Origin: Lutjanus erythropterus
Lineage: Eukaryota; Chordata; Actinopteri; Lutjaniformes; Lutjanidae
Length of the DNA stretch: 64,000 bases
NCBI GenBank assembly: GCA_020091685.1
Contig: CM034595.1
Location: 22,491,564-22,555,563, forward strand
Direction: 5' to 3'
A program made the position numbers and the translations under genes. Of this stretch, positions 11,346 through 50,800 are shown piece after piece. How positions within the stretch are numbered: position 1 is the stretch's first letter; every line of letters starts with the position of its first letter. The notes under the pieces are model-generated. The model was not told the DNA's origin. It searched no databases and saw only the letters and a list, made by a program, of their open reading frames with translations.

Positions 11346-12920
11346 AAATCTTTCCAAAATATCAAGTTATTTCTTTAAACATGTCAAGCATGCTCAGGCT
11401 CTGACAACCACAAGCACTTGCTCTCTTTGTGAGGGCTGAAGGGACAGTTTAGGTAATCTGGTATAGTTTGTCTCAGAAAATAGTTGCTTATTCAAGGAAG
11501 GGATGCCCTTTGTGGTTGAATTGGGGGGTTGGCAAAGGAGCAGAGAGGGATATGAGGCCCATGCAGGACCTGGAGCTGAAATTGAGAACCCTCCTCATCA
11601 GGGGTTAGGGATCATGGGCAGAGACTTCCCTTCATCACAGCCAAGCTGGGAAATGCAGAGGACAGCACGGGTCAGCCCTGACAGCCCGCTGTGTGCTGTT
11701 ACCATGGCAAACATCCCAAGGGCCAAAGAAAATAGATGACAAGTACAATAATACGAGGTGTAATCACGAAGGTCAGTTGCCTGCAATGTGCTGCCTTCCA
11801 CTCTCAAGGCCCCATATTCTTCAAAAGTGAAAAAAGTTGGTGTACTTTAAGGGAAAATTACTCAGTAATGTGGTCATTTTTCCTCCATGCCTCTAGAAAT
11901 CAGGAAACCTTGAGGGACATGCTCTAGAGACTCTCCATGAGCAGCCACTGAGAGATTCCAGTCCACTTCCATCGCAAGATATTTACTTTCCGGTTCTTTG
12001 TACTGGGTGCCCTGCAGATGGAATCTAGCATCCTCTTTAAGGGGAAATTTTATGACTTATTAACTGTCAACAGTTCATAACCTCCAAGGAGCTATTAAAC
12101 TTTCTCCTGTGGTCACAGCAGAAATGCCCGTGTTTGAATTGGACTGGGAAGATATTTGAATGTTTTTGCTCTTCTCCGCCCTCCGTGCAAGTGCAACAAA
12201 ATGCTCAAATCAGCTTAAACATCATTGTGTCAAGATAAGGATAATAATGTGTTTGCTTTGTTTTGAAATTACAGAGGTCATAGTGTGGATGTTTTGTGTA
12301 AGAACACATCAAAGAAAACACAGTGAGGAGACAAGAATGCTTAGTGATGATACAACCCTGCAAATATTTAATAACCAATAACCAGCCATGCAGTTCTTAA
12401 AAATAATAGGATAATAATAATGATAAGATTTCTTCCTATAATTTAATTCCTTCCACTGCAGGTGAATAACTCCAACATTCTCCTCATCCTCCATCTCCTT
12501 CTCTCCTCTCCTTTTTTTTCCACATTGAGCTATATCATAGATATTTTTATACTCGAGAAATGGTGTCAGCGGTGTGACTAAATCATTTATCACCAGCCAA
12601 AAACAACCAGGATGAATAATTGAGTCCAGATGTAGCTGATTCAAGCTTGATACCAGGGTTCATTTCCTGTCTGTGCTCTGTAAGACAACCTATTACACCT
12701 CCCAGGCAGCTGCCGGGTATGCTGGCCCAGTCTGAATATCAACACTCCTCAGGTGTCAGTGCAAGAATCACACAACACACAAATCCTATAGCCCCCTATT
12801 TTTATGACATATACCCCAACACTGATATATATAGTAACTGTATGTCCTGTTTTATTCATGCTTTAATTACATATTAACCACGGTTAAGCAGTGGTGGAAT
12901 GTAAAAAAGTAAATGTGTTC

Positions 12921-14650: not shown

Positions 14651-17600
14651 AGTTAATGAGAAAAGATTAGCTGAGTCCACTGCATTCCTGTATGATTTTT
14701 TTACAGTGTGTATCTGTTGAATGTTTTGGCAACTTGAACACTGGTATTTTCTCCTCTTTTTTGCTAGAAAACCTGGTTATTCTCAGCTGTAGGGTGATAT
14801 GTAGCTGCATTTTGCAGGTGGGACCAACTCTGCTGTCTCTCAAAACTGAGCCATGTTATTCATGTTCTCACTGAAATCTGTATCCATCCATTTCAGCATG
14901 AATTGCACGCAAGTTTCAAAACAAATAAACACCAGCCAAGGCGGTTTCTATGGAGAAAATCAATCTGTGTGGAGGGATGTCAGGATTGTTAGGAAGAAAA
15001 GGTAAATAGTGAAGCGGAGTGGGCTGCAGACTTTAATGTAGTGTTTACACTGTAATTAGTCTTTGCAGAATGAGATTCCTGACAGAGGGTCTGAGACGGC
15101 GTGGCATGATAAAATAAACTCTAAACAGCACTGTTTCAAGACATCCTCCATGGACCATAAACCAAGACGGCCTCCACAGACTACAACCACCCCTCTCTAA
15201 TTTTCAAAATGGGTGGTCGGATTTTTTTTCTCCATCTCACTCTTGCTCATTCTTTGTCTTTCTTTTCCTCCTCCATCCTTCCTTTTTGTTTGTTCTCTCT
15301 GTTGTTTATACCACTCATCCTCTTCACTTCTTTGCATTTTTGCATGTTCTCCTTATTTTTTGTTTTGTTCCTCTCAGTGTTTGTTCCTCGACTTCCTGCT
15401 TCCCTCCCATCCAGCGTGAACCCAGGTTGCAGCTTTGACTTCCAGCTCTCTGCAGGCCCCTCCGGACTCTGACTCAATGACACAGTCTACAGCCATGCGT
15501 GCAGAAAGGGGGGACGACTGGGGCTCATTCAGAACTGTGTCACTGTCCACCTGAGCAAACAGAGTCTCGGAGAGGCAGGGAGAGAAAGAGGCGGGAGAGA
15601 AACTGGTAGGGAGAACCAATTGGTGAGGGAGGGCTGGCAGAGTGACAGCCAATGTACAATAACATTAGTCTTCCGCTTTGGCCCAAGTGAGCGCTCCTTC
15701 TGGACACAACTCTGCTTCAACGTTTCTTCTTATTCTTTTTTTTATTTTTTTCTCGTCTCTTTTTCTTGCGTGGAGCTCCCTCCAATGGAAACACATTCCT
15801 GTCATGCCTCACTGCTGTTCCCTGTTTAGATTTCTCATTACAAACAGCATTACACGCATGGGCTGGAGCTGGCCGGAGCACAAGCCAGGCAGAGGCCGGG
15901 GACCTCGGTCCTCCACAGCCTCCAGGAGAGAGATGAAGATGAAGGAGCTGCAGGGTCTATTACATGGAGACACAAAACAGGAATTAAAACCATTTTAAAG
16001 GATGAACATGTAATGTATTTACTGTACTGAACCATAAAATGGCCAAGATATGTCATCAGACATTAGGGAAATTTGCTAAGATAGAAATACTGGCTTCTAT
16101 GATAAAAACGCTACAGCCAGCATGTTCTCCTTTGAAACTTCCATTCTGGCGCAGAACTTTTGTTTTTGTTTGCCTGTTTTATTCACTTTACATGCCAAAT
16201 TAGTAAATGTCTATTTATGAGGCATAAAAAATCATTAATAATCTTTAAGAATGAATAGATGTTTATAACGGTGAAATATGTTAATGGAGTCTGGCAGGCA
16301 GTAAGGCAGGCAGTCACTGAACTCCAACTCCAGAGTGGTTTTTTTTGGAGCAGTGGGCTTTTGTTTTCAGGATAACAGGCTTAGTTTTACATTGACAGAT
16401 ACTTGAGTTATGAAAAGCTGATCAATTTACAGTGTCGGACTTGTCTTTTCTCGTCATTGTCAAAGTATAATCTTGCGCTTGTCCAACATGTTTTCATCCC
16501 AACTTGTCACATATCGACACTTTGTTACCCTTCACGTCTCATACTGGTGCACAAGGTACCCTTTAAGATGTGGTTAACACTGTGAAATGTTCATAGTTTG
16601 AGTAGGTTTAGGCACAAAAACTTAAAGCTGGCAAAAGTACACACATTCTTTTCCTAGGTAGAAGTACTGGTACTTCTTAAGTCAAATAAAAGTGACAAAG
16701 TACATGATCTGAAATGTACTCAGAGTATCCAAGTAAAACAAAGCCCTCAAAAGAAAAATGTAAGTGCAGTGAATGAATATTTGTACTGTCTTACTTCCCA
16801 CCTTTGCAAAAATTACTTGGGTAGTTTTGTGATGAGACCATGTTTGGCATTAGAATAAGTATATTACATTACACACATCATGTGATGTCACTGAAGCAGC
16901 TCGCAAGATGAAAGTCACATGACACACGTCACATGAAGCACATAACCTTATGTTTCATACCACCTTCACTAGCGTTTTATTTTCTATTTGGGACACGAAT
17001 CCCAGTCTCCTGGCTGAAAGTTTGTTTGAGCCAACTATCCACTCCCTCAGTGCGTCTCATACAGGAATGGGTGGGTTTACATTCAAATCATTTGAAAGCC
17101 TGGTGCATCTCTTTCAGCCGCTAAATGGGACTCTGCGCATCTGTATAAGTCACTGTTGGGCGGTGACAAAACATTGGTATTTGATGAGCTGTGAATAAGA
17201 ACTGACTGGCCGTGTATGTTCAGTGTTCCTGCAGCCTGCAGGCCGGGGGGAAACAACTCACTTCAACCAAAGATCATATATTAATGAGGGATTTATCCTA
17301 CTTAATATACCGTCTATGGCTCGAACTTGCTATTTGGACTGCAGTGTTCATTTTTGAATGCTAGGGTGTTACATATCGCCCCTTTAACTTTCTACATCTA
17401 TTAGTTGTGAGGAGAGGAGAAAACAAGCTGTAATATATGTCCATCATAAGAGGAAAAATGCATTTTGCAAACTGAACTCACGCTGAACCCCAGACATTCT
17501 GTAGCTGCCTTTAGTCGTTGCAAAACTTCAAATAAAACCGAACAGAAACCTTGGGAAATTTCAAAACTTTTCCTTTGATATTAAACTGTCATGAGTACCG

Positions 17601-23300: not shown

Positions 23301-25210
23301 GAATATTTTTGCAAGAACAATTTTTCTTTGAAGAGTGAGGTTATTATGTGGTGTTTCAGTCAGGCCATTATTATTGGCGTTCTGTGTTTCCCTCATGATT
23401 ATGTCCCAAGTTAATACATAGTATTTGCCATGCCATATAGATCATGAGACAAACCCCAGTGGTCCCAGTGGTCACAAGCCACAAATGGCAAAATTTTAGA
23501 AGAACTGAGCTGGAACTCAAAATGATCCCTTGGCATAGGCTTGTAGAAGAAATCACAAGTCTTACGAGCCCTCGGGGTGTCATTTCGCCTGGCGGTGCAT
23601 TCAGGCAACACTTACAAACACGTCCTGTCCAACTAGCTGGAGAGCAGCAGACTTGCTTTATGGGGTCTGGATTGGACGGTGTGAGGGAGGTAGGCACGTA
23701 AAAGTGCCTGGTCGCAGGAATCAAAGAGAGGAGACGGCATCCCACGGACGCCGGAGCCCCACTGATGGGATTCTCACAGACAGGAGAGGCCAGGTTTGCC
23801 GGTCCCCATCTCCTCTGTGGAGAGGCCACTTCCCCGGGCCACTGTGGTTCCTCAGTATCACCTATCAGCCGGGTCAATCAGTGGCTGAGATAAAGCAGTT
23901 CCTTAGGCCGGATGGTCTTTGAACACAGCAGGGGAAGAACTCCCCCACGTCTCTTATCTCATTAAACTTGAAAAGGTATATTAATCTTTGAAAGGCTAAG
24001 ATAACGGTATGGATGACACCAGTCAGAGAGACTGACAGTAATATAAACGCTATCTATGTTGGGTCATCAATGTTTCATCTCAGGAGGCGAGTGAAAATGT
24101 GGAATTCTTCCTCTACTCTTGAAAGGATGTTTTTGAAAATGTTCACACCACATTTACGCGGCATCCTTTGACGTCTCAAATGTTGTATGGCCCAATATCC
24201 CTCCAGATTTTCACTATCTATTGTCTGTGTGACATCAGAGGAAAATGGCTGCAGTGTGAATACAGTGAATGAGTCACGTTTCACATTCAGAAGTTTTTGA
24301 CGAAAAAACACATATTCCATTCATGAATATACAATATTTAAAATGCTTACTTAACAGACCAAGCTTCATTTTTGAAATACAGTTTTAGATGCACTAGTCT
24401 CATAAACTACATGATTTAATGTTGAATGACAGGCACACAGGCCATCAAAGAAAAGAAATCTTGGACTCACAGACATCACAGGCCACAAAGAATCCAAGAG
24501 AAATGAGTCAACTGCACACCCGTCTGACATCAGTCCCTTTTTCCCCCTCCTTTCTTTTTTGAGGTGCACTTTTTCACACCAGCACACAAAACAGTCTCCT
24601 CTGTTTGCTGCCAGCAGCACTGCACTGTCCTACACCTCGAGCATGGTTAAGAGCGCATGGAAAGAAAAACACCACGTTGTACCACCAGATGCCAGATTCA
24701 TACAAATCTGGACTGCACACGAGAAAGCTGGAAAATGTTCTTTACGCGTTGTTTTAGCCCTCTGTCATCTTCGACTTTGGTGGGCAGGGTTTGAAACAGC
24801 AGAGGTTCATCTAACGAATGACTTCCTCATTTATCTCGACTGAGGAGGCAAATTTATTCACACTCTATGTATCAAACTCTACAACAAGAAAAATGAGGAA
24901 AACCCAAACTAATTTAACATTTAACATCAAACACATTTGTCAGTGTAGTTTTATTGAGATGATATATGGCTGAGGTGACTCTTAGCTTGTAATTCTAAGC
25001 AGCATAAACCATCTATTGATAGGTTTGTTTGTGAAATTTCATTTGAACTTGAACATTTGTAAGCAAGGTTATATTCAGAATACTGGCAATATGCCACTTC
25101 TTTGCTGTAAGTCAGTCTTATCTGTCAACCATCTGCCCACTTTAAAAATAATACCTAAAGCCAGCACATACACAGATGTTCAGGACAAAGTTGAGTAATC
25201 TAAATTTCAT

Positions 25211-25211: not shown

Positions 25212-25241
<30 letters not shown>

Positions 25242-25285
25242 AAGAAGAAGAAGAAGAAGAAGAAGAAGAAGAAGAAGAAGAAGAA
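25212..25285 (+). repeat. (AAG)n microsatellite
   Basis: An uninterrupted run of about 24 AAG units. Confidence 0.95.
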
Positions 25286-31191: not shown

Positions 31192-31900
31192 TTAAAGAGA
31201 TAGTTTGGATTATTTGATGCCTGGTAGTATGAGGTACTTGTCGATAGTTAGTGTATTATTTACAATAGATGGCGGTCGACACACCCCTGGTTTTGAAATG
31301 CCGGGGCACCAGCACAGAAACTAAGCAATGAACTGCGGTGGACAGAGTCAGGAACAAAAAGTATTTTAGCCACTTAAAAATGGTCCATCAAATGTCTTTC
31401 TCTCCAAGCCAACCAAACTCCATATGTGAAATCACTAATTTTACCCTGCAGAACACAGGACTTGCTGGTCTACCACTGCCTCAATCTGTTTGTGTTATTG
31501 TGTGACTTTGGTGTTTTAAAAGGATAGTTTGGAATTGCCAAAGTCACACAATAACACAAACAAACTAACTGATCGACGCAGCAGTAGACCAGTACTACAG
31601 TGTTCTGGGACATAAAATTACTGATTTCTCTGATGGAGTCTAGTTGGTGTTCAAAGAATGACATTTGGCTTATATTACAATGCTTTCTCGTCAGAAAAGG
31701 CTGTCTGAGGGAAAGGTAAAGCACTGAAAATATTCTAAATATAGCGTACATTTAAACTGATATTGATTTTTTTCAGGTGTAGGTTAACTTCTGTGCTGGT
31801 ACTCCTCTATGCTTCTCTACCATTTATTCTGGGTAACACACTGACTATCATTAAGTGCCTCATACAACCCCACTTCAAGTAATCCAAACTATTCCTTTAA
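31192..31900. mobile_element. TTAA-flanked foldback element (non-autonomous DNA transposon)
   Basis: TTAA occurs at both ends (31192-31195, 31897-31900). The termini are inverted repeats: TTAAAGAGATAGTTTGGATT on the left, TTAAAGGAATAGTTTGGATT as the reverse complement of the right. The two halves align imperfectly over more than 300 bp and converge on perfect 24-bp arms, 31488-31511 and 31538-31561, around a 26-nt loop. TTAA target duplication is typical of piggyBac-type elements; no transposase frame is present. Confidence 0.75.
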
Positions 31901-32489: not shown

Positions 32490-32825
32490 TCATATCATGG
32501 CTCTTATCACCAGTCTTCCTTTGACATGGTGAAGATAGGTGCTCTGCTCAGACTCTAAGCTCTGATTGGTCAGGGCCTCGTCCTCGCTGTCGGCCGGCTC
32601 CTCTTTGACCTTTATGACCCCGTAGTGAGCGTCGGGGAGCTCGCCGCTCGAACCACTGCTGCTGCTACTGCTCAGCGTGTGCTTCCGAATGACTCCTCCA
32701 GGGGGCAGCCTGTCCTCCTGCATGCTCTCTGTCTGCTCTCTGTGCTGCTGCTCCTCCTGCTCCTCCTCTGACTCCTGCAGGTGTGCGCTGGGCTGACGTA
32801 ACTGCTCAATGGACTTGGACAACAG
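32490..32825 (-). CDS. hdac9: hdac9 terminal coding exon 11 with MITR-type read-through tail
   Basis: The acceptor is TGTTTTCCAG|CTGTTG. The reading frame of 111 residues (482-592) ends at TGA 32492-32490. It encodes [18 protein letters not shown], an acidic Glu/Gln stretch, a serine run (532-541), then [13 protein letters not shown] with SUMO consensus VKEE (K555). In full-length HDAC9 this exon splices on into the deacetylase half. Here the frame runs through the expected boundary after TYLHH (codons ending near 32523) into [11 protein letters not shown]. Human MITR ends QQVIGKDLAPGFVIKVII, and V-G-K/R-L...VI-K/R-x-x-I is shared. The GTs available for splicing on (CAT|GTCAAA, CTG|GTGATA) are poor donors. 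Confidence 0.93.
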   Translation of the reverse strand: MLSKSIEQLRQPSAHLQESEEEQEEQQHREQTESMQEDRLPPGGVIRKHTLSSSSSSGSSGELPDAHYGVIKVKEEPADSEDEALTNQSLESEQSTYLHHVKGRLVIRAMI

Positions 32826-35800
32826 CTGGAAAACACATCGGCTCCACATTAATGATGATATCCTGCAGCAAGTGATCTTTAACAATTACTCTTTTATCAG
32901 GGAAGAGATTAACCGTACCGTCCCACTTTGCCTATTCATAGCTTCACAATACTTACAGAATTCTCTGAATATTTCTTTATCTATCTGTTAAAAACAAACT
33001 ACTGTATCCTCTTTAGCAAATCAAATCAAATCAAACTCTAAACAGTTCATGATAGGAGAATGAAGCACTGCATGGTGCTGATGGCTGGTCCAACAGGTGC
33101 TCTTTAGTGAGGCAGGGAAAATACAAAAAGACAACAAGACCCAGGAAGTCTTGCTTTATATTAAGCTATGCAGACCACCAAGGACAGGAACTAAGGCACG
33201 TCTTCTTATGAAATAATACTTTTAATTTGAGCACAGGCTGTGTATCAACTCTAGGTCTTGAGCAAATTAGTGTTACTGTCTCTGTAAATGCATATAATCA
33301 CAAAAGTGTTGTTGTTGTGTTGTGACAGTTTTCAGGCTGCCCAGTTAGTATAACACCAAAATCTGCAGTAATCACATAAATTGGAGAAAAACAGTTATAC
33401 TATACTATGTAATAGACGATTACACACGGTAAATAATGTATTTTCTCCTGCAAATTCTAGTTATTCTACAACAGTGTCAATAAGGGACAAGCTATAGGGA
33501 ACATGTTATTGAATAGGATTGCTAAAGAGGATAACAAGACATCATATGACACTCTGCTGAATCAAAGTAAGCCATGTTCACTCTAAAGGCACCTATTTTT
33601 GAGCAGTAACCTGGACAATACACCCAGGTTGTCAAAAGTAGTAATACTTTTTCCATGTCACATGCTTAAAACGACACAATATCCCTTAATTACAAATATT
33701 GAAAGTAACAAAGCCTTTAAAAAAAAGATCTAAGTGCTCATTTAGGACCTTAGTTTAGTTTGGTCTTCATTGTCTTGCAGCAAAACTGCCAGTGTTCAGT
33801 TACTTTTTCTGCACCACCACTATGTGCAGGCTAAGTGTTAATTTAAAAAAAAATAAATAAATATGTAATTTTGTTTGTCAAAGACTTTTTCTTTTTGCTT
33901 TTTAACAGATGCATCTGGACCAAAGTGTCAGAGGCATCAAGATGTAAAAAGGACATTCACCCTAACAGAAGAACTCTGCTTAGAGAGATGTCTCTGTGTC
34001 TCTCAGCTTTGCTAAATCAGAACTACTGTAATGGTGCCATGATTTGATCATTCTGCCACAAGAGGGCTCCAGGAGCAGGACTGAGAAGCGCCTGCCTGCC
34101 CCAGCTGGTAACCAACAACATTAGTGTCTCCAGAATGTAGGCCTTACATAAATAACCCCTCAGCTATAAGAATTAGCCTCCTTTAGCTTGGCATTAGTAA
34201 ACACTGTTCATACCTCTTCCTAAAATCCCTAAGCTCTTGTAAATTTCCATCAGCTCCCCCTACTGTTGCAGGCACTGAAGGACGTTTAAAAACAACCGCA
34301 GACAAGCCTCTGCTAGGAAATTAATTAGGGCAATGTTTCGGAGATCTCTCTCAATAAACACTGAGGGCTCATCCCTGATTAGTGGCCATTTATAACCTCC
34401 ACTTAAAGAGGCTTTACTTGCGATCTCATTGGCCTGAGTGATCAGAGCAGGGCCTGTTCACGTGTTTCTAGACAAGATGTTGCAATTATTCCAAAGCTCT
34501 TTTCAAATTAAATCAACTTCACAGAGTACTTTTAATAATAATAATGATTACAGCTGATATTAAAACTAATTTCAGCTGCCTGGCAGTGACAAGTGTTGGT
34601 TATTTTTAGTCTTACAGAGGAAATAAAAGTGAAACAGTTTGCGAGGGTTAAAGCTGGACATCCATACTGTACAACTCAATAAGTTCCTGTGTTGCTTTGT
34701 GCTTTTTATTACTTCTAGGTAAGAGTTGTTCTATGTTTCCCATGGCTGTTTCAGGGTCCAGCGTTGGGACACATCAGTATGTGAGCTCACACAATGCTGC
34801 CTTTCACAGTGTCAGCCACCTCACACACGTCCCTCACCAGAATAATTACACTCTGTGTATAGCGAGGTCACCTCGGCCAGCTAACAGAAACACAAATATT
34901 GCCACAGAGGAACAAAATGTATTCTGGGCACTTTTTCCTTCATTTGAACTTAGCTGAATTGAATTTCACAGAGTTAGCATGTGAACAGCACTGATGCCTT
35001 AAGCTATGATAACAGAATTAGTGCAGGGGAAGCATTTCTTCCCCATTTGAAGTTCAGTGCTTCGCAGAAATAACACCAGGATTCCAGGGAAGAACAGACA
35101 ACAGCCCCGGTCTGCAAACCTGAGCTACCACAGATGCTTTTACAAAAGGCTAAAAATAGATCAACATTTGTGTGCTTAAAACGATTAAATCAGACTCCCC
35201 ACAGTAAAATCAGACCTCACGAGACCTGAGAAGGAATAGAGAAGGCTGCGAAAAGCAATCTCAAAGTCAAAATCCTCCCCTGCGATTTGAATATTGATGA
35301 GTAGCACAATACCTTATTTATATGGACCTGCTGCTGGTACTGTTTCTGTTTCTCCAGGAAGTGCTGGTGTTGCTGCTGGATGACGAGTTGAGCCAGTGTG
35401 TTCTGAGGCAGCGGTGCGGACTGGGTCCTGTTCAAGGGCCTGTGTTTTGGTAGTTTAGGCCGACTGCTGGAGGGTCGATCCTTCATGGCCAGAGGGGACT
35501 GAGGGTGGGATGACATGGAGCCTTGGCCTTGGCAAAACAAATAAAAACAAGTATTAAGTGCTTCTAAATCCATAGTGTAAAATACTTTAATTTAAAGTAC
35601 ACCAATATATAGTTGATTGCTTGACTGATTACTTTTAGAGCTGCAACTAATGATTATTTTTATTTATTTTCATTTCACAAAATACAACAAAATTAGGAGC
35701 ACTACTCCTGATCAGTGCAATAAAAAGACATACAAAAATATACAAAAATACATAGGAACAAAAACAACCACAGTCAAATAATAGGTAAAAACTCCAATAA

Positions 35801-38800
35801 TTAAATAGAATAACAAGTAAGTAGAATACTAGAAAAAAAAACTAGAATCAAGAATAAGAATAAATAAATAAAGATAATGCAAGTTGACAGTGTAATGCTT
35901 AACATTAAGTAATGCAGCCTTACCAGAGGAGAGCATCTTCTGCTGCCTCATCTGCTCCTTTTGCAGGAGGTGTTGGAGGAGGGCCTGGTGACTGGGGCTC
36001 ACTTTAGACTCAAGGCTTGTCTGAAGGGGCACAGGGCCCAGCAGGTGCCCGGGCAGCCCGTGCTTGATTTCTGTCGATCTGTCTTTCAACCCAATGGCGG
36101 CCTGAGAGCAGAGACAAGGTGGTAAAGTAACATTTTTTCTTTAATTCACAATACACATGCTGTGCACTAGGACTGGTAGCCACTTATTATCATTTCTAGG
36201 AAATAAACGGGTCATTTTAACGAGCCAAATTCAATAATCAGCTGTATTCTGTGAATGAAAAAGGATTATTGTTGTGTAGTTACAAATCGATTAGGCAATG
36301 TTGAAATCAGAGACCATCAATGGTTAGAAGTCACTGCAGCAGATGAACAGGCGTCTGTGGAATGTGCCAGAGAGCTAAAAGATGATATATCATGTGCTGT
36401 GTTATCAGGAGTTGCACTTGAGTGGACTTGGCCTTTTTAAAAGCTGTGATAAATGAGGTAATAGAGGCAGATAAGAGCAGGCCTGACACAAGACACTGCA
36501 GAACAATATTTATCTAAAGGCGATAAAATCATTCAGGTCCACAGGTCAGTGACCTGTGGTCATACAGAGAAACCAGACAGCCACTGAGAGCAGGTTTTCC
36601 AACTCACAGGCTGAACAGAAAGACTTACCTTCACTGAGCCACTAAACTGGTGTATTAAAGGGATAGTTCAGATTTTTTGAAGTGGGGTTGTATGAGGAAC
36701 TTTCATAGTTGGTGTATTATCTGCAGAAGATGGCAGTGGCAGATCAGCAACTCCCATCTTCTGTGAGGTAAAAATGTCTCACAGCAAGGTAAAGCAGAAA
36801 AAAACTGTTGTGCATGAACGTGATAAAAGAGCACACATTCATGAACACACTCATGTTCACTGGTGAAGGGTGAACTGAATGGATTAGTTTAGAGCTAATG
36901 AACCTAAGAATCAGTCAGTCTTCATCAGCTGATTAAAAAAAAGTGTAATGCAGACTCATAAAGAGAGAAAGTAAATATGAACAGAGGTTTTGACCTGCTG
37001 TAAAAACTTTCTTTGATCATGCAGCATGACATGTATGAACATACAGGTAGATATGTAGATCCTCTCATCTCATTATCATCTCCTTGCAGTTCTCATGCTT
37101 TATGGTGTGTTCAATTTGAGCTGGAAAGTCGGAATTTCATAGTTCCCATATATATATATAAATATAATGAATTATTCTTATTATTCTTATTATTATTAAG
37201 TTATTCTGGCCATTCAAATTAAGACAAAAAACATGAATACTGCAGACCATTTAGTATGACACCATTATACAGACTCCAGAGGAGGTGGAGGAGAGGAGGT
37301 TCAATTTAAAATTACATTTTTAAAAAATCAAATGACAAATTAAGAAATTAACATGAAATAGTTAATTTTTGGGACTGTGAACTTAGTTAAAAATTTTAAA
37401 TTGTTAACTATGAATGTGGATTTTAACTGAACTTTGAACTAGTTCTTTTGATATACAAACTTGCACAGCACCGATGAAAATATTTTGAATATAGCACACA
37501 CTTAAAGTGATATAGATTTTTTTAAGGTGGTTAAAATATGTTTTGCTGCTGACCCTCTTAGCTACATCAGTATTCCTGCTGCTTCTAAGACCTGGGGCGT
37601 GTCTAACACGATCTACTGTAATACACTGACTATGAACCTCATACAGCCCGGCTTCAAATCTGACCTACCGCTTTAAGCAAGATTTTATTTCATGTAAACC
37701 ACACAGGTTATCTAAGAATATAAAAAAACATTTGTACTCACACTAATGGGTGAGGATGCATTTGAAAGCCCAAAGGAGATGTTGGGTAAGGAGGGAGATG
37801 TGTATAAGCTCAGCATCGACACAGAGCCCTCTGGTCGGAATAGTCTCGGCTGTGAAGGCCATCTCTACATCAAAACACAGGACAGAGCAGAGACAGAGAG
37901 ATTTAGGAGGAGGCAACAGATTTAGAAATCCCACTACGGACAATTCCAAAAGGCAACATGAGCAGTGGCATAAACGTTAATGCACTATGACGAGCAACAG
38001 CCCTCCTCGCTGCAAACGGAAAGGTTTAAGTTTTTATGATAGATGATATACAGGAGTGGCGGGCGGCAAAAGTTTCCTGGTGCTTCAGAGAATGGCACCA
38101 GTGAGGATGATTCGCAATTATAAAACATTGCAAACCTCTAAATCTACAGCTCCACCCTCAGTTCTTCAGTCCTCAGTCGGCCTGCTGCCTGTTCTTACTC
38201 CCCTGTCCCCACCCTCGGGCTACTCTCTCAGAGAACATCAGTACTGGGGCATACTTCCTGTACCCAGCAGAGCAGCCGACCAGCATGTGGTTTTGGAACA
38301 GCCATGTTTATCCTTCCAACCCCTACCAGTACTCAGTGACCTGTATGTGGATATCCGGCCCATATTTGACCCGAGGGACCCGTTCCCTCTGAAAAAGGAT
38401 ACCTAATGTAACGGTGCACAAACACGCCTTGCTTTTGCAACAGGCATGAGGTCTACAGGCACCCCCCAGAGTCCACCAGCGAATTTCATGAGAGCCCCAG
38501 CTTGGGCCGATACAATAGCAATTCTGTGTGTTTATGTTGTTAGCATGTGGATATCTTTGGCTACCAGCGCCTGGGATATCAATTAAACTCCACAGTTCGT
38601 CCTTCTCCCTGAGCCCCCAACCTTCAGCCCGCTGTCAGGGCGTCTCTCCCTTCTCCGTGTCGCTGGAGGTCCCTGGGAGAGTAAACAGCGACGGTTAAGG
38701 AAAACACAGCTGTTCTGTTAAGATTGTTCAGAGATGTGTCATATCTGCCACCCTCTATAATGGTCTGCTTTGTGAGCTCGGTCCAAGGAGAGCTCTGGTC

Positions 38801-41800
38801 AGTAACTCAGCCATGAATCTATTGGGAAACGCCTCAGAACAACTCAGAACAGGCGGGCACACCGCCAGGCCAATGACAGAAATACAATGACAAGCCAACA
38901 GCAACCTTACAGCCAAACTAAAGATGTTTTTTTTTCTTTTTGCAAAACATAAAACTGATTGTACAGCACATCTGGAAGAAAAATGTTGGACAGAAATATT
39001 TTCACTGTTGTTTTTGCAACGTTTGTGTTCAGAATTTTAACACTGATAGAGTCCATTTATTTCTCTGCATAATGTGTCATCTTTACGCAAGCAAACTTGG
39101 GGTAATCAGACATGTGGGTCAAGCTGTGCCTCTTTAATGTCAGTGTGGGGAGCCATTTTCATTGGACTGTAACAGACAGAGGACAACTGGCTGTTTTTAT
39201 AGCTGCAGGCAGAAGGGCAGACAGGCATTTAGTGCCCTGACATAAAGTTGGACTTTTAATATTTGCAAGCAGGAATAACAACAGCAGTAAGACTTTTTAG
39301 TCCACTGGAAACCCCAGTATGACCTATATGAAAACCAGCACTGTGGTCTTTTATGATTAAAATGTCAACTATAGGTTTAGGAGATGAGATCAAGCTTGTT
39401 TGCTAAAGGTTATTAATTGGGAAATTAAAATAATTAGCAAGATGAGGTAATAGATTGCCAAAAACTGCAAAAGGCTAAAATTTAGTTTACTTGCTGATTG
39501 CTGATCAATATCTTAAAAAAGCACGAGGACAGAAATGTTTTCTTATATATTTATATTCTATATGCACTATGAAATGGATAAACATTCAAATAAACTTACT
39601 CTGGGAAATTTTTGACAATTTTTGATTTTCTTTATCTTAAAACTGCTAATTATGCTAATTTTGTAAATTGCTCATCATGCAACTCTTAGCAACCAAGTTG
39701 ACTTTCATCCACTGGGCCTGTTGATGACATTTCAATCATAAAAGTACACAGAGAACACCATTACTGGGTCCAAGAAATTTTCACGATACTATTTGCTTCA
39801 TTTTTTGGCAAATCAATAGACGTGCCGATGATTTATAAACTTACCTCAGTTTTTGTGGTAGTAGGCAGAGAGGAGGGTCCATTTTCAGCCCCCAAGGCAC
39901 TAGAGGCCCCTATGGGAGAGCTGGGGCCGGAACCAGGGGCACTGTTAGTGGGCGTAGAGTCTATGAAACATCAAGGAGTTAGAAACAGTATGCGTGCTCA
40001 CACTCACACACAACACACACATACACAGAGGCTTGGCATAACAGCTGCAGCCTCACAACAGTTTAATGTGTATGGTCATGGCTGCCTGATTACAATGGTC
40101 TTTCCTGCTGATTGTTATGCAGCTCTGGAGTAATAACACTAAAATATAGGCTCGTATTGTTTTCAGAGAACATTTTAAACAATTTTCCATACATGTCGTA
40201 AAAAACAATTCAACATATAGCCAGCAATAATACATACCCATTAGCTCCAGAGCCCTTTTCTTGTAAGGAGTCATGATGTTTCCATCTCTTCTCTTCAGCA
40301 TCGGGCTGCTCCTCCTCTCTGCTACCTTCTGCTTCAGTCTGGATCGTACCTTCAGGTTGGGCTCAGATGCTAAAAAAAATTCAAGAACAGATGTTTCTTT
40401 CTTGTAAGTCTCAATTCACACTATTTCCACGATAAAGAAGCCTCATCACATGGAGAAGAATTTTATGATCGTGTGAGTGTACTGTGATTATTTTTATAGT
40501 CAGACAGTGTGTTTTCATGCAGCCTGACTAAAATCAAAGAAAACAGTAACATAAAATAAAAGGAAACTAAAAAAGAAATAAAGAGACTATAAATCAGTTA
40601 AAAAATAAGCAATGTTGTCACGCTTCAACATACAATTTCAGTTTCAGTGAAATTCGGAGCAGGTTTCAGATAAATTAAATGAGTCAGGATTGGGCCCATT
40701 TCCACCTCATCTGGACTAAATTAGGTTGAGCAACACACAGGCTCTAAGTGAAATAGTCCGCTACCTGCCGCCCTGGTGACCACAGTCTGATACAGTAGCA
40801 ACAGTTAAACTAACACAAAAACATGGCAGATGTTTCAGGCTCTCCCCACACCCCCCCCTCCTCCTAATGCAAAACAGAGATACCCAAATACACGGTCTGA
40901 ACACACACTCAAACACACACAGCTTGGCCTGGACTGATCCAGACTTACAAATCCAGTCCATCAGTGCTGACAGAAATGCTGACGTAACAGTCTTCACAAT
41001 AGTCATATTCATGTCAAACTTTTCGGCTGGTATTAATGATGGATTTAAGGACAAAAACTCTATTTAGCCGAGGTATGCCACACTGACAGCGTTACACACA
41101 ACTGATGAAGTACCGAAGCAAAGCCAAATTTGATGATAGTTTAAAATTTGAAGCAGGGAGTATGGTCATTGCAGCATGAAGTCTTACTTGTCCCATGTTA
41201 ATTTGCATTTGCCACTGTTTCTAAAGAACCAGTACAAGATTGTAACTGTTAAGCAGGGGCATAACCAGGGACTTATGAAACACTGAGATCAACACAGAGA
41301 TTATTATGTTCGTTATTTCCCCTTTAAAGGACCCGTGTGTAGGATTAAGTGGCGTCGGTGAGCTTGCAGATTGCAAACACTTCATCTCCGACAGACCTAT
41401 ACAATTACATTTTTAAAATGGGCCGATTTGAAAAAATAGTCAAGTTCCAAGGGGCTGGACGTTTACATTTCCTACGTCTGACCTGTAAAGTTAGGGATTT
41501 AAATGTGTAAAACGAAGGAAAATCTTTTTTATTTTTTCTCCACTTTATTAGTTTTCACAATTGAAAAAGAAACACGTATAAAAGTGCAGGAAAAAATGCA
41601 AGTTCGCGATCCTAGATTAGCAGCAGCATGTTGTTTTAATGATGCAACTGCATCAAACATCGTTTTTCATTCAGTTTGACTCTCTGAAATTTCATCAGCG
41701 TACAAAGCCTGAATTAAAACTTTAAATTTATTTATCTATACGTTTTAGTATTTTTAAATTATTAAAGGGCGGCATTGTGGTTGTTAAAGGGCTGGATCTG

Positions 41801-44800
41801 GCCAATTAAATAGGGTCACCGTAGGAGAACCGACAGTGGCCTCAAGAGCTTCTGGAGACAGAAACATAGCTGTGTCTATGGAAGGATTCTAAGGACACAC
41901 AACAATTCTTATTAATAAAACATACTTATGAATACTGATGAATATTATCTTCCATTTCTGCCATAAACTTCCAATAGGTCCTCATAAATCTTACTGACCG
42001 GACCTTTAATCTACAATAATTTAGAATAACTGAAAATGTATTTGGGGGTGAATCATGTACAATACATACAGATTAGGCTTGAGTTTAAGAAAATAATACT
42101 ACAGATCGACCAAGTCTCTTGCTGAATGAATCATCGCTTCACAATGACAAAAGAGAAATGACATTTTAAAAATCAATGAGGACATCTGAGTCATAAATGG
42201 CAGTTACATGCAACAGCCCTGCCAACCTCTGATAAAATAGGACAATGTCACAAATTAGTAAACTCATCTGAAAACATGTGACTCTGCAAAGTTTATATAA
42301 TGTAACACATGGAAACTAAAGTGGAGGCTGAATCAAGGCAACAACATAATTTTAAATAATGTAAGCAGCAACAACCAATAAATGTTTTTGTCTCTGAATG
42401 TTGAGTCGTGGCCCTGTCTTGTCACAGTTACAGTGACTCACTAGGTCAACATGTCTCATGTGTACTTCCCATCAACCCTTTGGACATGGAATCCCACAGC
42501 TAGCCTTACACACTCAAATAAGCAAGCAGAATAGATAAGCTGGTCTTTTGACTGAACGCCAGAGCACAAAGCTGTATTGAAGTTATGTAAACCTTCTGTT
42601 ACACAATAGCCAACCAGTTTCAATTATTTAGCCCAGATCAATAATTAAATAGGTCTTTTGCAATGTGTACAACATACAGCTTTACATATTGAAGTGGGGC
42701 TGTGACGTGGGTGCACTGCAGGGAGGAGGAGAGGGAGCGGGTGATGGGGGCACAGCTAGGAGAGTGGGCCAGATGCTGCTATTTCTGGCTTTTGTCAAAA
42801 GCAGCAAAACCCTCTTCCCTAATACGTGGCACAGACCTCTAATCCTGTGGGTGTGAGGTAGAATGAAAGAGAGCGAGGGAGGAAGAAAGGAGGCAGGAGA
42901 GATAAATGGAGAGAAAACGCTGTTGGGAGTCGTATGAATCTGCTTCACGCCCTGCTGCCTTGATTGCTTTCTATTTTTACACACTGCTGCCACCAAGCTA
43001 CGCATCCCAATTGGTCGCCACGGGAACGCCAGACAGCAGCACGGGAACAAACACTTTCTCACTGGTCTCCATGGAAAAAATGCCCTGGTGTACGGTGCAA
43101 CAGGAGGCAATGATGGCAGCGGCAAAGCATATACAGAGAACACCTGGGCCACTTCTGCTCCGGCTTCTCAGTTAATGAAAACATACAGTAATGGCTGCAA
43201 TATACTAGAGTCATAAATCAATCACCTTATTACATTTTAGAGTGATGCTGCAGGGCTAGTGGCTTTGCAAGTGAATGTGTTATGCTATCTCCACTTAATC
43301 AGAATTTTAACGGTGCTGTCGCTGTGGGTGCCTGTGTCCATTAGAGCCAGGACTTCGACAGATGGCTGTGTGGAAAGCTGAGGTGTGTGTTCTACACATA
43401 AGGAGGTCTGCTATGCATTTTACCTGACGTTATGGTTTAAACTGCTGCTGACAAAGACGAATTACTGAAATACTCATTGGTCGCTGTTCCTTTCTAAACT
43501 TTTAAACCAAAGTTAAGTTACAGTTTCTAAGAGTTTAGATACTCCACACCATAAGATCAGCAAGTTCAAATCTTTCATCAAATAACAGTGTTGAATAAGG
43601 AAATATAAAAAGGTTCTCAGTAAGTCCCCTGAATGTGTTCTAGATAAAACCTTTGGAATGTTAGAAGGTCCTCTGAAGAACCCACTAAGTGTGTTCTAAA
43701 TAAAACCCTTAGAGTATAAAACGGTATTCGGAAGAACACCCAGGGCAGGTTCTAGATAAAACCCTTGGAATACAAAAAGGTTCTCGGTAGAACCCCCTGG
43801 GTGGGTTCTTGTTGGAAGCCCTAGGTGGAAAGGTTCTGGATAGAACTCCTAGAGATGGTTCTGAGTGGAGCCCTTACACCACAGAAGGATTTTCTGTAGA
43901 ACCTCTCAAAGAGAGTTCTGGATGAAAGCTTTCACAGATCGTCCGAGGTATAACCTTTTATGTTGAGTTCTCCTATGGGGACAAGCCACAGAACCCTTTA
44001 TGGTTCTACCTAGCACCTTTATTTCTCAGAGTGTACAAGCAGAGCTGCAATGATTAGTCGATTAATCAATTTGTCAGTCAAAAGAAAACAAGTTTCCAAC
44101 TATTTTGATAATTGATTAATTGCTTCAGGCATTTTCCAAGCAAAAATATCAAATATTTGCTGGTTCTAGAATCTTAAATGTGAGGACTTACTGCTTTTCT
44201 TTGTTATTTATGATAATAAATGAAGAGTATTTGGGTTTTGGACTGTTGGTTAATGAAAAGAAGCGACCTGAAGACATCACTTTGGGCTCTGGGAAATTGT
44301 ATTGTGCATTTTTTACATTTTGTAGATTAAATGATTAACCAGTTACAGCCCTACATTCAAGATCAGATTCTGAATAGAGGAAGCTTGCACACTAACTTTA
44401 CTTCTTTGGGTTTTACGGTTTTACCTTTGCAGGATTATTTTTGAAAATCTTTCCTGCACCTGCTGAATGCACACATTTGGTAACTGGGTCAAGACCAGAG
44501 AGGGTGTTGCACTTCTTACTGCTAAGCTGCAACTATTCTTGCCACAGACTATCGCGTGCCCTCGGTCCAGTCTATTCTAGTCCCTGGAAGTGAAACAAAG
44601 AGGATATATACCAAGTAAACAAGTTAATCACGTGAAATTCTCCTAACTACTGAGTGAAATAAAAGCCAAGGGCATCACAGCTATTCTGTGCTTTTAATAG
44701 GACAGATATTTAGAGAACTACAGGACTGTCTGTCCAGATTATGTACGCATTTTTTGTATACTGTCCAACTATGTCTCTAAGGTTTTTCAAATCTCATGAT

Positions 44801-47800
44801 GAAGAGTATACTTTGAGTGTGCACTGGTTGGTTCCTCTTTTCAACATAATGTAAATATATAAAGATTACTTTAAATCAAACCTAATTTTCTATATTCCAA
44901 TTTTAAAAGAGAGTTATTGACCACCAAGCTAACTAGTGTTACACACTATATATCACATGCACATCATAAAACTTGTTACCACCTATTATATAGATATAGT
45001 GAATAGAGGATGCTTTCAAATAATATTTGCCTATCATCTATAGTGCATGCTATTTATTCTTCTCATTTTATCCTTATTCTTGCTTTCATCTTTTTATGTT
45101 GTATTTTATACTTCCATTCTTGTTTATCCTTTTTTAAATCCTTTATCTTGTTTTAAATTGCTGCTGGTTTCTTAGAGTTACTGAACATAATTTCTTTGTA
45201 TTACAATGTCAAAATATCTCATCACCTCAACCTCAACCAGAAAAAGATGTCGCTCAGCTCTTTGGCCAAACGAAGCAGTGGGGAGTCTGACGTGGAGCAT
45301 TAGAGTCATCTCCGCTTTGTTTTGAGAGAGCTATCTTTGCTTAAACAAACAGTCCTGTCGAGGTTCGTCTAGCCCGTGCCCGCCTTAACTCGCCAACACC
45401 TGCCAATCAGCTATCAGTGACAGGCAGTGGCTCTGGGAACAACACTACCTTTGTGTGTCCCCCTCGGGTGCCACGCTCTCAGAGGACTTTAATGAAGACA
45501 GACAGGAAGTGGGGGAGGATGGCCTGAGCAGGAAATGACCACATATAGATTCAGGAATCCAAAGAGCACGAAAAAGTTTCATCAGTGCAAAGACAGTCAG
45601 GCACAGGAATGATTTAACCATGAATTAAAGGATAAAAATGCCACAGATGGAAATTTTATCCATCCTGTTATTTGTTTAAACCTGCCTTTTTGTCTTTTCA
45701 GTGAAAAACAAACAATGCAACCATAAACTGCCTCTCTTTTATTTTAGAAAACTGTCTTAAACTGGTCATTACAACTCTTTACCCTGCGGCTCTAAAGGCA
45801 TGACCCACAGATGTAAATATATATGTACAAGAGGTATTTCTCGATGATTCAAAGAGAATACAATAAATAAAAGCTCCTCAAGCTTTCATTTACCTTTCTA
45901 ATATTTATTCTTGCCACGCAGTGACTTTATTTACCAGATATAGTTCCTTTGCCTGATCTCCAAATTGTGTATACATGCAACATGACAGGCCTGCAGTTAA
46001 ATAACTCAACAAGTATAATTGTTTTCCAATGTAATTAAAAGAGACACAGACGGGAAAAGAACATAATGTAATTTGGTGACCTCATTGCCGAATTATGAAG
46101 TTTCTAGCTTGGCGAGCACTTGTGCTCGTGCAAACCAAGAGGCAGGAATTATTCGTATTTACACAGCCATCCCCAAAGGGTTCCTGAAACTTTAAACCAA
46201 CAAACCTGAGCTGCTTTTTTGGTGGAAACCTGTGTCTTTTCAAAATAGTTTTTAAAGCCAGTAACTCCAGAGAAATTAATGCGCCTTAATTCTCCCATTT
46301 ACCACTAAACAGCTCAAACAGGCTTTGGAACTCCGTTTATTATTGTAACATAGGGACAAATGTGGTTCCTTTTAAATAATGGCGAGGTAATTTCAGTACA
46401 AATAACAGTAATTAAAAATTCTAACTTGTGAAGTCAAAACCTACAGTTTAACTGTGCTGTTGCCTGTGTTCAGCTGTGTTTTAGTATAATCCAAACAGGA
46501 ATAAGGAAGGTTTCAGTTACTTTTCTGGCATGCGTCACCTCGTATGGAAGTTTTGAGTTGAGCCCTGGAGGGACAAGGGGGGGGGGGGGTGCTGGGGTCA
46601 TAATGAGCCTAACTGATGTTATTAGCAGGTCATCAGGAAATACTCAGTGGGTATACAGACCTCCTGATTGACAAGGCTCAAAAAGACACTCACTGTATTA
46701 ATAACCCAATGTAGTAAAAGGTACATTTCTAACAATACAAGGACACAAGGATACAACATTATTACAAGGCAACATCATAACCTCAGACTGAAATCTTTTA
46801 ACCAGTTGTGTCTGTGCAGATTTATGCATGCATCTATATATGTATATTTGCATTTTTATGTCTGTGCTGTGTGTGTGTGTGTGTATGCAAATGAACAAAC
46901 CTGTCTTCCTCAAGGGGAAGTCGTCCTTGCTCTCTATGGGTGATGGCAGAATATACTGGCAGGTGGGGGATGTGCCACCCAGAGGTGGGGAGCTTTGGTC
47001 CAGTGATGTGTGGTGAGAAGACCTGGTTGCACAAAAATACATTAGAAATACAACTGCAGTGTTAGATTATATGTAGCTTGGTGTTTTAAGAAATACAGTG
47101 TTATATTTAACATCTTTCTTCATTCAGCTTGACTCTCCTAAATCCCATCTGCCTGACTTCAAACTTTTTCACTGTGCTTAGCAACAGACATGTCCACTTA
47201 TGTTGACAATGAAAACACCCGTTATTTAAATAAAATCACAATCATATACTTGATTAAGGGCGTTAGTTGCCAGCACTTGAAATGGCCTGGTGTAGATTAT
47301 GTTTCTATGTGATTTAAATACAGTATCTGTGTTTGTCTCGCAGGCTAAAACAACAGAGGCTACTTACGTGTACCAGAGTTTTGGTTGGTGAATGAAAGAA
47401 TGATTGACTCCATTGCTGGCAGGGTCCTTTGCTGATTTGCTCAACAGAAACTCTTGGAGTTTCTGCTTCACTTCTGTACTGGCAACTGCACCTGTGAGAC
47501 CAACAGACCGAACCAAAGGGATTGGGGTTACCCTAAGGCTATGACTCATTATATAATTTTGCCTAGAAAATATTCAAAATCAAACTTTAACCCTGATGGG
47601 ACTTGCAGATTTCCTAACCTGTTTTCCTTTATCACATTTAACTTGCTGCTAAAAACTAATGCAGTATCTCCCAGAGCAGCCACATCTTATGTATGAAGAT
47701 CTCCCCCTAGTGGTCTCAGAGCACTATATTAGTTTCAAACTGTTCAAGTGATACTGCAGAGAGATGTTCTTTCCCACTGGAGGGTTACAGTTGCAGGGCA

Positions 47801-50800
47801 CAGTTTCAAATTACCTGACCTGACAAAGTCATAAATCTAGTCTATTATTAGCTATAAGGTAAAAACAGAAATGAAACACTATATCTGAAGCTATTTTAAT
47901 CATGCTATTGAAAGACATTTTCTCCTAAATTCTAAACTTAAATGTCACTGGCTGACCTTATGTCATTAGTGGCATTTACTAATTAAGTATCATGTCATCA
48001 TCATCATCATCATCATCATCAGCATCATTATCATCATCAGCAGCAGCATCATCATACAATTGGATATCTCTCATTATCTGATGATGGAATTAAATTTCAG
48101 TTTAGTAATTTGCCTCATTCCTAGGCATCTCTCAGGACTGTTAGGTCTAATATTGAGAAACTGTGCCTCCAGTAGGCAGAGACATGAAATAAGAACAGTT
48201 TATCCTTCTCATGAAAAGCAATTCGGTCTCATGAAGTGAGAACGATATACTACACATGAATTTTTAACTTTACTGCTGTGCTGCCAAATATGATCCGACT
48301 CTGAGAGCCATTAGTCCTGGTAAGTAAGAAGAGGTGGTCTTAAAGTGTTGCTTCACCAAATAACAAAAACATTTTTCTCACTTACTTACAGTACTTGCAG
48401 AGTTTTTGACATATTCACCTTTGCTGTCACTCCAGAACGATGGATCAATACCTCAATCGCCTGACCACTAGGTATCTCATAATCATAGCAAATGAATTTC
48501 AAAATATCTGCATGACTGCATAAAACTAGGGTTCAGAGGAAAACATGTTTTTTGGCAGTTTAGGGGGTCTGACCCTTTAACACCTGAATTGTGTTTTCAT
48601 CTCAGCACTTTTGTAGTTAGTTTGGAAGATATTATTGTGTGGGTGTTATATGTTGTGTATACCACTTTCATTATAGTTTATAACACAGCTTTGTTAATAC
48701 TCAACTCTGATTGGTCAAATTATGCCATTCTTAGGTCTGTTAATTCGCAACAGCAGAATGTTGCTATGGACGCAGTCATGATCATCGACTCTGGAGGAGT
48801 AATAACATAATTTTCAAATCAATAATATCATTTTTAAATTCATATTTTGTGTCAAATTATTGCTTTTTTAGTAGCCCTGTAATAAGCAGGATGATGGTCA
48901 GTGTTCATTATTGCAAAATAAACCCCTTCAGGGTGATTGAAGACCCCTGCATCACTTTGAATGGGTTTATTTTACAATAATGACCTGTTCACTTGTATAT
49001 TATTCCTTAGATAGTAAATGCATTAATGTGGACCCCAGGATAAATATTTAATGGTGTTAAAGCAGCTGATGGAGATCTAAATAATCAATTTACATCATGC
49101 CAATGTAGCCCTTATAGCTGGATGCCAAATAAATAGAACAATTAAAACATCTGGTTTTTTTAATAACTAAGTTATGGTTAACATGCCTACAAAGGCTAAA
49201 TGAACCTCTACTGCAATCCTGTCACATGACTTGAAGGCTATCATCCTAGTAATAATGATAATAACAGAACATGTACATGAACCAGTGCGAATATACAAGT
49301 ATTTCCTCAGTTGGAGGAGCTTTCAGCTTCAGTAAAGCATTCCTATCCATCTAATATAGGCATATTTTGTATATAACTGTAAGGTAACACACTAAAAAAA
49401 AAAGACTGAAAAGGCTGAGGGTTATGATCATGAGACCTCCTGCTTGCTTTTGCCTAAGGGCCTTGAAAATGAGTAATTCCATTCCTGATGGTAGGGAGAC
49501 GGTGATGGTGATGACGGTGTCGAGCTCTTACTCTCTCGGGAGCGCTCCTTGCCCCTGAGGATCAGGCTGGAAACATGCTGCTCTCGCCGATGCCTCTCCT
49601 GCTCCTTCTCCTGCTGGTTCTGCTGCTGCTGCTGCTCCAGACGACGCTCCTTCTCTGCGAGTTCCTGCTGCTGTTTCATGGCCTGGAGCTCCTGCTGGAG
49701 CTAAGAAACACCCAGGCTTCCAGTCAGCACACGGAGAGCAACACTGATAAATATATTTTAAAAAGACAGTGGCTTATGTGAATTTGTGCTATTTTGCTAG
49801 GATAGACTATTTTGTACTTGTCTGTAAAAACAAGACTCACGCAGCTCTGTAATGTATTGCTCAACACTCCTAGTCTCGCTGTGCTGAGTTGTCTCTTCTG
49901 TTCTGCACTCTGTGATGTTGTCCTAAGCTATAATGTTTTCTACTGATCTGCACTATGCCATGCTGTTCTGTTTTGTACATTGTGCTGCTGTGCTGTGCCA
50001 CTGTGTACACCGCTGTGGTGCTGTCCTCCATACAACTGTGCAACGCTGACCTTGAGGTGCTCCTGGAGCTGAGCCTGGTGCTGACGGGTCAACTTCTCAT
50101 GCTGCTTCTGGAACTCGCTGATTAGTAGCTGCTTCTGGATCTGCTGCTGTTTCTGAATGAGGAGCAGCTCCTGCTGCAGCTGCCGCTCCCACAACCCTGG
50201 GTCTGAGCCTGGGCCCAGCATCCTCAGATCGGTGCGCAGGTCCAACGGGGATAAGGGCTCCGCAGCCAATGGCACGTCTGGCTTAATGTCCACTGTGGAC
50301 CACAGAGGGGAAAGTAGAGAGAGAATAAAAGTGAAAAAAGAGTGATTAGTTCCATAACTAACACCTTTACTCATAAAAATTCAAATCATGCAGCCAGAAT
50401 AAGTGGACGGAGCTTCCAGGTCTAAAAAGTGAAGCCAATGTTGAAGTGCCTTAGACCTGCATTCTATCTAATGGCCAGTCAGGGACAACGCTCATTATGA
50501 TCTCAATCACCAGTTTCAAGTCTTCTTTACAGCATGATGTCCATTTTATAAATGATGGTCTTATTTTGAGAGAAATAGATGATAAAGCAGGGAATGTGTT
50601 AGGGTGGGGCTCAGTGAGTCCAGCAAGCGCAACACAGAGTGCTCACAAAACTCACATCAGACTGTCAAAGTATTGATCAAATGTAGATCAAGGTTCTGTT
50701 GCTACATTGACATTATTATTACAGTAAGATATCCAAAGGCACATGATAAATACAGGCTTAGAACCAAAATAATCAATTAGCAACCACAGCTGTACAACCA

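Follow-up and report, generated by a model that had tools for sequence, protein, structure and literature searches.

The stretch of DNA analyzed, referred to as the window, comprises 64,000 nucleotides of the Lutjanus erythropterus contig CM034595.1 (positions 22,491,564 to 22,555,563). A tblastn search carried out with the N-terminal half of human HDAC9 has revealed nine ordered matches on the minus strand that run from 50305 down to 32532 and fall within residues 4 to 572, residues 262-304 being unmatched. The exons of this half that lie upstream of the last one are the following:

50051..50292, minus strand: exon encoding the Gln-rich N-terminal domain of HDAC4/9 together with a CtBP-type motif, PLDLR (Pfam HDAC4_Gln, E 2.3e-22)
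49532..49691, minus strand: remainder of the Gln-rich domain (Pfam HDAC4_Gln, E 1.5e-4, 22.3 bits, below the cut-off of 25)
47368..47492, 5' end approximate, minus strand: exon with the MEF2-binding helix, 16 residues (tblastn match)
46901..47022, minus strand: exon ending in FPLRKT, the first half of a 14-3-3 site (tblastn match)
40238..40369, minus strand: exon with the second half of that 14-3-3 site and a basic region (tblastn match)
37766..37855, minus strand: exon, matched part only (tblastn match)
35924..36101, minus strand: further exon of the N-terminal half (tblastn match)
35313..35522, 5' end approximate, minus strand: exon with the second 14-3-3 site (tblastn match)

The exons of the N-terminal half are open and, as read from the sequence, the Gln-rich domain, the CtBP motif, the MEF2-binding helix and both 14-3-3 sites are kept. 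The two 14-3-3 sites read LRKTASEPN, which was recognized by eye and spans two exons, and NRTQSAPLP. In the available text of PMC7912504, the roles of CtBP, MEF2 and 14-3-3 in MITR are described. An intron of the same gene carries a tandem array at 43602-43809, with a unit of 56 bases, 3.7 copies and 71% matches.

The gene is continued by an exon in which the frame runs beyond the expected exon end:

32490..32825, minus strand: terminal exon, stop included, of the MITR-type HDAC9, with an open frame, the acceptor ttttccag/CTG and likeness to human HDAC9 residues 486-572
32490..32525, minus strand: read-through tail of 11 residues and stop; its first GT, CAT/GTCAAA, corresponds to the ancestral donor and is poor

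On the minus strand the open frame extends from the acceptor (about 32825) through the tail codons (32525-32493) to a TGA at 32492-32490, and the continuation past TYLHH into a short tail followed by a stop was found in the sequence and frame originally predicted. The ancestral exon end has been placed after STYLHH, everything past 32526 being read-through, by comparison with human HDAC9, where the exon ends in AAFMQQ, and with the same exon of the C24 hdac4 gene of this fish, which ends in ELLFRQ. The position of the tail fits read-through from the intron that follows the end of exon 12. Downstream of the stop, poly(A) signals occur at 31828, 30582 and 30126. When the tail was compared with that of human MITR, as given in the original prediction, an equal or better score was obtained in 33, 45 and 80 of 5000 shuffles with three gap settings, and the same score was reached by 4, 5 and 4 of the 1615 GT-started read-through peptides of this window, with p values for the similarity of about 0.003-0.016. 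The resemblance is suggestive, not strong; it fits common descent and does not in itself demonstrate coding constraint, so the proposal that the 11 residues are under such constraint appears weakly supported. A single indel error inside the last exon would give an altered tail, and nothing points to an error of this kind there.

The strength of the possible donors at the exon end was estimated in bits with an approximate PWM. The GT at 32525 (CAT/GTCAAA) scored -4.4 bits, at the 57th percentile of the 3698 GTs of the gene strand. This value is below those of all seven donors of the gene's own upstream exons (range 0.36 to 5.39; eight were tried, and the eighth had no GT at the place tried), and also below 46 of the 47 donors picked automatically from the catalytic exons of the paralogues (49 exons tried, two without GT), the single lower value (-11.0) being probably a wrongly picked GT. 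The absence of a good donor at the expected exon end, which had been proposed from the sequence, is thus borne out. The second GT in the tail, at 32510 (CTG/GTGATA), reached 0.78 bits, at the 93rd percentile, and the donor of the preceding exon is lower (0.36). The statement that both GTs of the tail are weak therefore holds for GTCAAA but not for GTGATA, which is of moderate strength.

The assembly (937.6 Mb, 444 contigs) has been searched with the PF00850 profile, giving 35 matches, with no intact deacetylase domain matched by PF00850 in the window. Five intact class IIa genes were found, corresponding to two hdac4, one hdac5 and two hdac7. In a small class IIa tree, C10 and C2 grouped with HDAC7 (support 83/86), C19 with HDAC5 (97/95), and C24 and C6 with HDAC4 (98/97), while human HDAC9 was left with no fish partner. 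The gene C19 had been considered as a candidate hdac9a and was discarded on its grouping with HDAC5. When the whole genome was searched with the last two exons of MITR, the matches at E<1e-5 were only the window itself and the hdac5 and hdac4 genes; four more had E 0.77 to 6.2, the first of them near hdac7 on C10. A second hdac9 was not found in the assembly among the best candidates scored, an absence that is not absolute; a second copy encoding the long form was likewise not found, the matches at E<1e-5 beyond the window being only hdac5 and hdac4.

On the downstream side, a twist1-like sequence was located at -4374 to -4113, that is, 4.1-4.4 kb past the left edge of the window, convergent with the HDAC9 gene; the match covers 68 residues with 98.5% identity to the query protein. 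Because twist1 lies next door in convergent orientation, the interval downstream of HDAC9 is bounded. No Ns are present in the window or in the adjoining stretch. The whole interval of 36.6 kb from the stop to twist1 has been searched, and no intact deacetylase exon was found in it; full-length HDAC9 made through the tail GT as the main route was rejected on this basis. Other features of the window are a perfect AAG repeat of 24.7 copies at 25212-25285 and its longest open frames, which overlap at 23374-23919 (168 codons on the minus strand and 127 on the plus strand) and gave nothing above the cut-off in Pfam; tRNA and Rfam scans of the window gave nothing.

A first signal of catalytic sequence in the window came from a tblastn search with a class IIa catalytic domain, which gave two poor matches (E 1e-4 and 0.009), ordered and on the gene strand. 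With queries drawn from the five intact class IIa genes of this fish (49 exons that represent 11 kinds, not all of which were obtained from each gene), the ten best matches at the protein level and the six best at the DNA level all corresponded to the same two places, E4 and E7:

15440..15550, minus strand: fossil of catalytic exon E4 (class IIa exon VDSDT...GELK): the acceptor is kept, the donor is reduced to GAA/GTCAAA, and there are a 3-base insertion and an open frame
11594..11715, minus strand: fossil of catalytic exon E7 (class IIa exon DVHHGNGTQ): gg stands in place of ag at the acceptor, the donor place has no GT, and two 1-base insertions and stops are present

For E4, a tblastn E value of 2.9e-6 and a blastn E value of 1.1e-6 (66%) were obtained, the best among the own paralogue exons being that of hdac5. 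E7 was aligned over its full length by blastn (122 columns, 68%, E 9.3e-12) with the hdac4 exon of the same fish. Both are in the right order and on the gene strand, and both start at the ancestral exon start. Their scores, 42.5 bits for E4 and 59.7 bits for E7, compare with a maximum of 32.6 bits in 60 dinucleotide shuffles of the interval on the gene strand, none of which reached either, and with a best of 28.3 bits in a reversed-sequence control. None of the exons E1-E3, E5, E6 and E8-E11 stood out, their scores being reached by 5 to 57 of the 60 shuffles. An E9-like match at 14091-13999 was discarded as a further fossil, being weak and out of order.

A reading of the two stretches as chance matches or as pieces of another class IIa gene would agree with the Pfam scan of both fossil pieces, which gave no match, and with the low significance of the E4 match in PDB, where all eight among the matches listed were HDAC4 at E 0.38-0.40. 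We consider it extremely unlikely: the two exons are separate, with sequence between them, they lie in order on the gene strand, their starts match exon starts, one acceptor is intact, and their scores exceed the maxima of both controls. Moreover, in the comparison with human references, E4 was closest to HDAC9 (80, the next being 69), while E7 was tied between HDAC9 and a fish hdac4.

E4 and E7 are former coding exons, now non-coding, which are still recognizable, and from their sequence they look dead. The E4 donor (GAA/GTCAAA) scored -5.2 bits, and in this exon seven of 19 residues that do not vary among the five intact paralogues are changed. In E7, the first His of DVHHG, a zinc ligand, is replaced by Cys. 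Among first and second codon positions invariant in the paralogues, 10 of 48 in E4 and 19 of 67 in E7 have changed; the pooled figure, 29 of 115, corresponds to a Jukes-Cantor distance of 0.31 (bootstrap 0.20-0.44) and, if neutral rates between 3e-9 and 1.2e-8 per site per year are assumed, to roughly 100 to 26 million years.

The frame that contains E4 is open over 96 codons (15377-15664), with the acceptor intact, and with these two properties E4 could in principle act as a new terminal exon. A longer protein might then still be made if the GT at 32510, which is in phase 0, were spliced to E4; the product would end in a novel C-terminus that has no functional deacetylase. This splice would use a donor above that of the gene's own preceding exon and an acceptor that has been kept. 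We regard it as very unlikely: it would lead into an exon with the substitutions at invariant residues and the poor donor of its own given above, and the C-terminal tail derived from E4 shows no sign of constraint.

The quality of the assembly bears on how the small insertions are read. The twist1 frame shifts three times in about 300 bases with its residues conserved (L010:5400-5890, about -4600 to -4110 in window coordinates). These frame changes are most likely small indel errors of the assembly, and possibly real damage. Given this pattern, the two single-base insertions in E7 may also be errors in part. Indel errors do not bear on the substitutions at 25% of the invariant positions, on the altered splice sites or on the nine exons that cannot be recognized, so the confidence given to each reading is unchanged.

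The reading that we consider highly probable is that the window contains the fish HDAC9 orthologue, beside twist1, which would now be an obligate MITR gene with a pseudogenized deacetylase half. The deacetylase half would have turned into a pseudogene within the 3' flank, where two mutated catalytic fossils are found and the other nine exons are unrecognizable. In mammals, the counterpart of the last MITR exon is either spliced onward or read through into the intron; here this exon would be used in read-through only, forming the 3' end of the gene. Since there is no intact deacetylase exon in the interval and no other hdac9 was found, the read-through end is probably the real end of the gene and MITR its sole product. 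As far as the assembly shows, the gene appears able to encode only the MITR form, and presumably no long form is made in vivo. The original prediction had named the short repressor as the main or only product on the grounds of weak donors; this claim is well supported, by the decayed or unrecognizable deacetylase exons up to twist1 and by the lack of another HDAC9 rather than by donor strength. By analogy with mammalian MITR, the protein would repress MEF2 by recruiting other deacetylases, with CaMK-type phosphorylation and the binding of 14-3-3 acting as its off switch. The open frame and kept acceptor of E4, the empty Pfam scan of the fossils and the high E value of the E4 match in PDB speak against the obligate MITR reading.

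The survival of E4 and E7 in particular has also been considered, under an explanation that would add to the obligate MITR reading rather than replace it, namely that both exons have been kept as putative cis-regulatory DNA of twist1 after their protein part was lost. In the HDAC9 numbering, E4 would be exon 17 and E7 exon 20. In the mouse, according to the available text of PMC6233932, a 23 kb segment with Hdac9 exons 17-20 holds the Twist1 enhancers eTw5-7. In a survival simulation in which the paralogue exons decayed uniformly and none was deleted (six distances tried), the probability of E4 and E7 being seen and the other nine missed was at most about 0.016, so the other exons have been deleted or E4 and E7 have been slower to decay. 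Deletion of the other exons accounts equally well for the survival pattern. If four exons of the eleven are specified, the two survivors would both lie among them with a chance of 6 in 55, and the search of the interval did not recover exons 18 and 19, the ones that are named as eExons. With the mouse enhancer segment at exons 17-20 and the numbering of E4 and E7, regulatory retention can be put forward as a reasonable hypothesis rather than a result, and we give it a small, though not negligible, chance of being correct. If it were true, the fossils would sit at both ends of the segment with TWIST1 enhancers inside mammalian HDAC9 (exons 17-20), and one half of a coding gene would have become the control region of its neighbor twist1, with the remaining half turned into an obligate isoform gene.

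The in vivo importance of the weakly active class IIa deacetylase domain is a long-standing question for which MITR has been named as an argument (available text of PMC7288346). A vertebrate whose only recognizable HDAC9 has dropped the domain and kept the repressor half would be a natural experiment, suggesting that the scaffold function can be enough. The obligate MITR reading would also mean that an alternative isoform has been fixed as the sole product through decay of the remainder of the gene that encodes it. The fossil exons could be dated in other fishes, and the locus is one in which exons are known to serve also as TWIST1 enhancers.

Among teleosts, zebrafish Hdac9b is reported in a database entry to lack deacetylase activity, and if this is right the same state would be present in another teleost; catalytic exons surviving as fossils are not known to have been described in that gene. 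According to the available text of PMC7288346, the zebrafish has 11 HDAC genes, without HDAC2 and with HDAC12 in addition, a count that implies the presence of HDAC9, with no statement about its domain, and that counts against a teleost-wide loss. In the literature covered, with most subscription journals outside its scope, no description of a deacetylase-less teleost hdac9 or of its fossil exons was found. MITR is a known isoform, and within the same literature an HDAC9 gene with fossil catalytic exons has no earlier description. The eTw5-7 TWIST1 enhancers (PMC6233932, available text) resemble the present case in the twist1 neighbor and in the fossils, which would be the segment-end exons 17 and 20, and differ from it in that eExons 18 and 19 were not found in this fish, where a regulatory role of the fossils is putative. 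Mammalian MITR/HDRP (PMC7912504, available text) has the same N-terminal repressor half, with the Gln domain, the CtBP, MEF2 and 14-3-3 sites and a short read-through tail; however, in mammals it is produced alongside other splice forms and the deacetylase exons of the gene are intact, whereas in this fish these exons are decayed or gone and the form would be obligate. The exonic remnants of teleost duplicates (Dong et al. 2010, as cited in the available text of PMC3342275 and PMC3206014) are likewise teleost exons without coding function that are still recognizable, but they derive from the lost copy of a duplicate, whereas in this fish the decay appears to have affected one half of a gene that remains in use.
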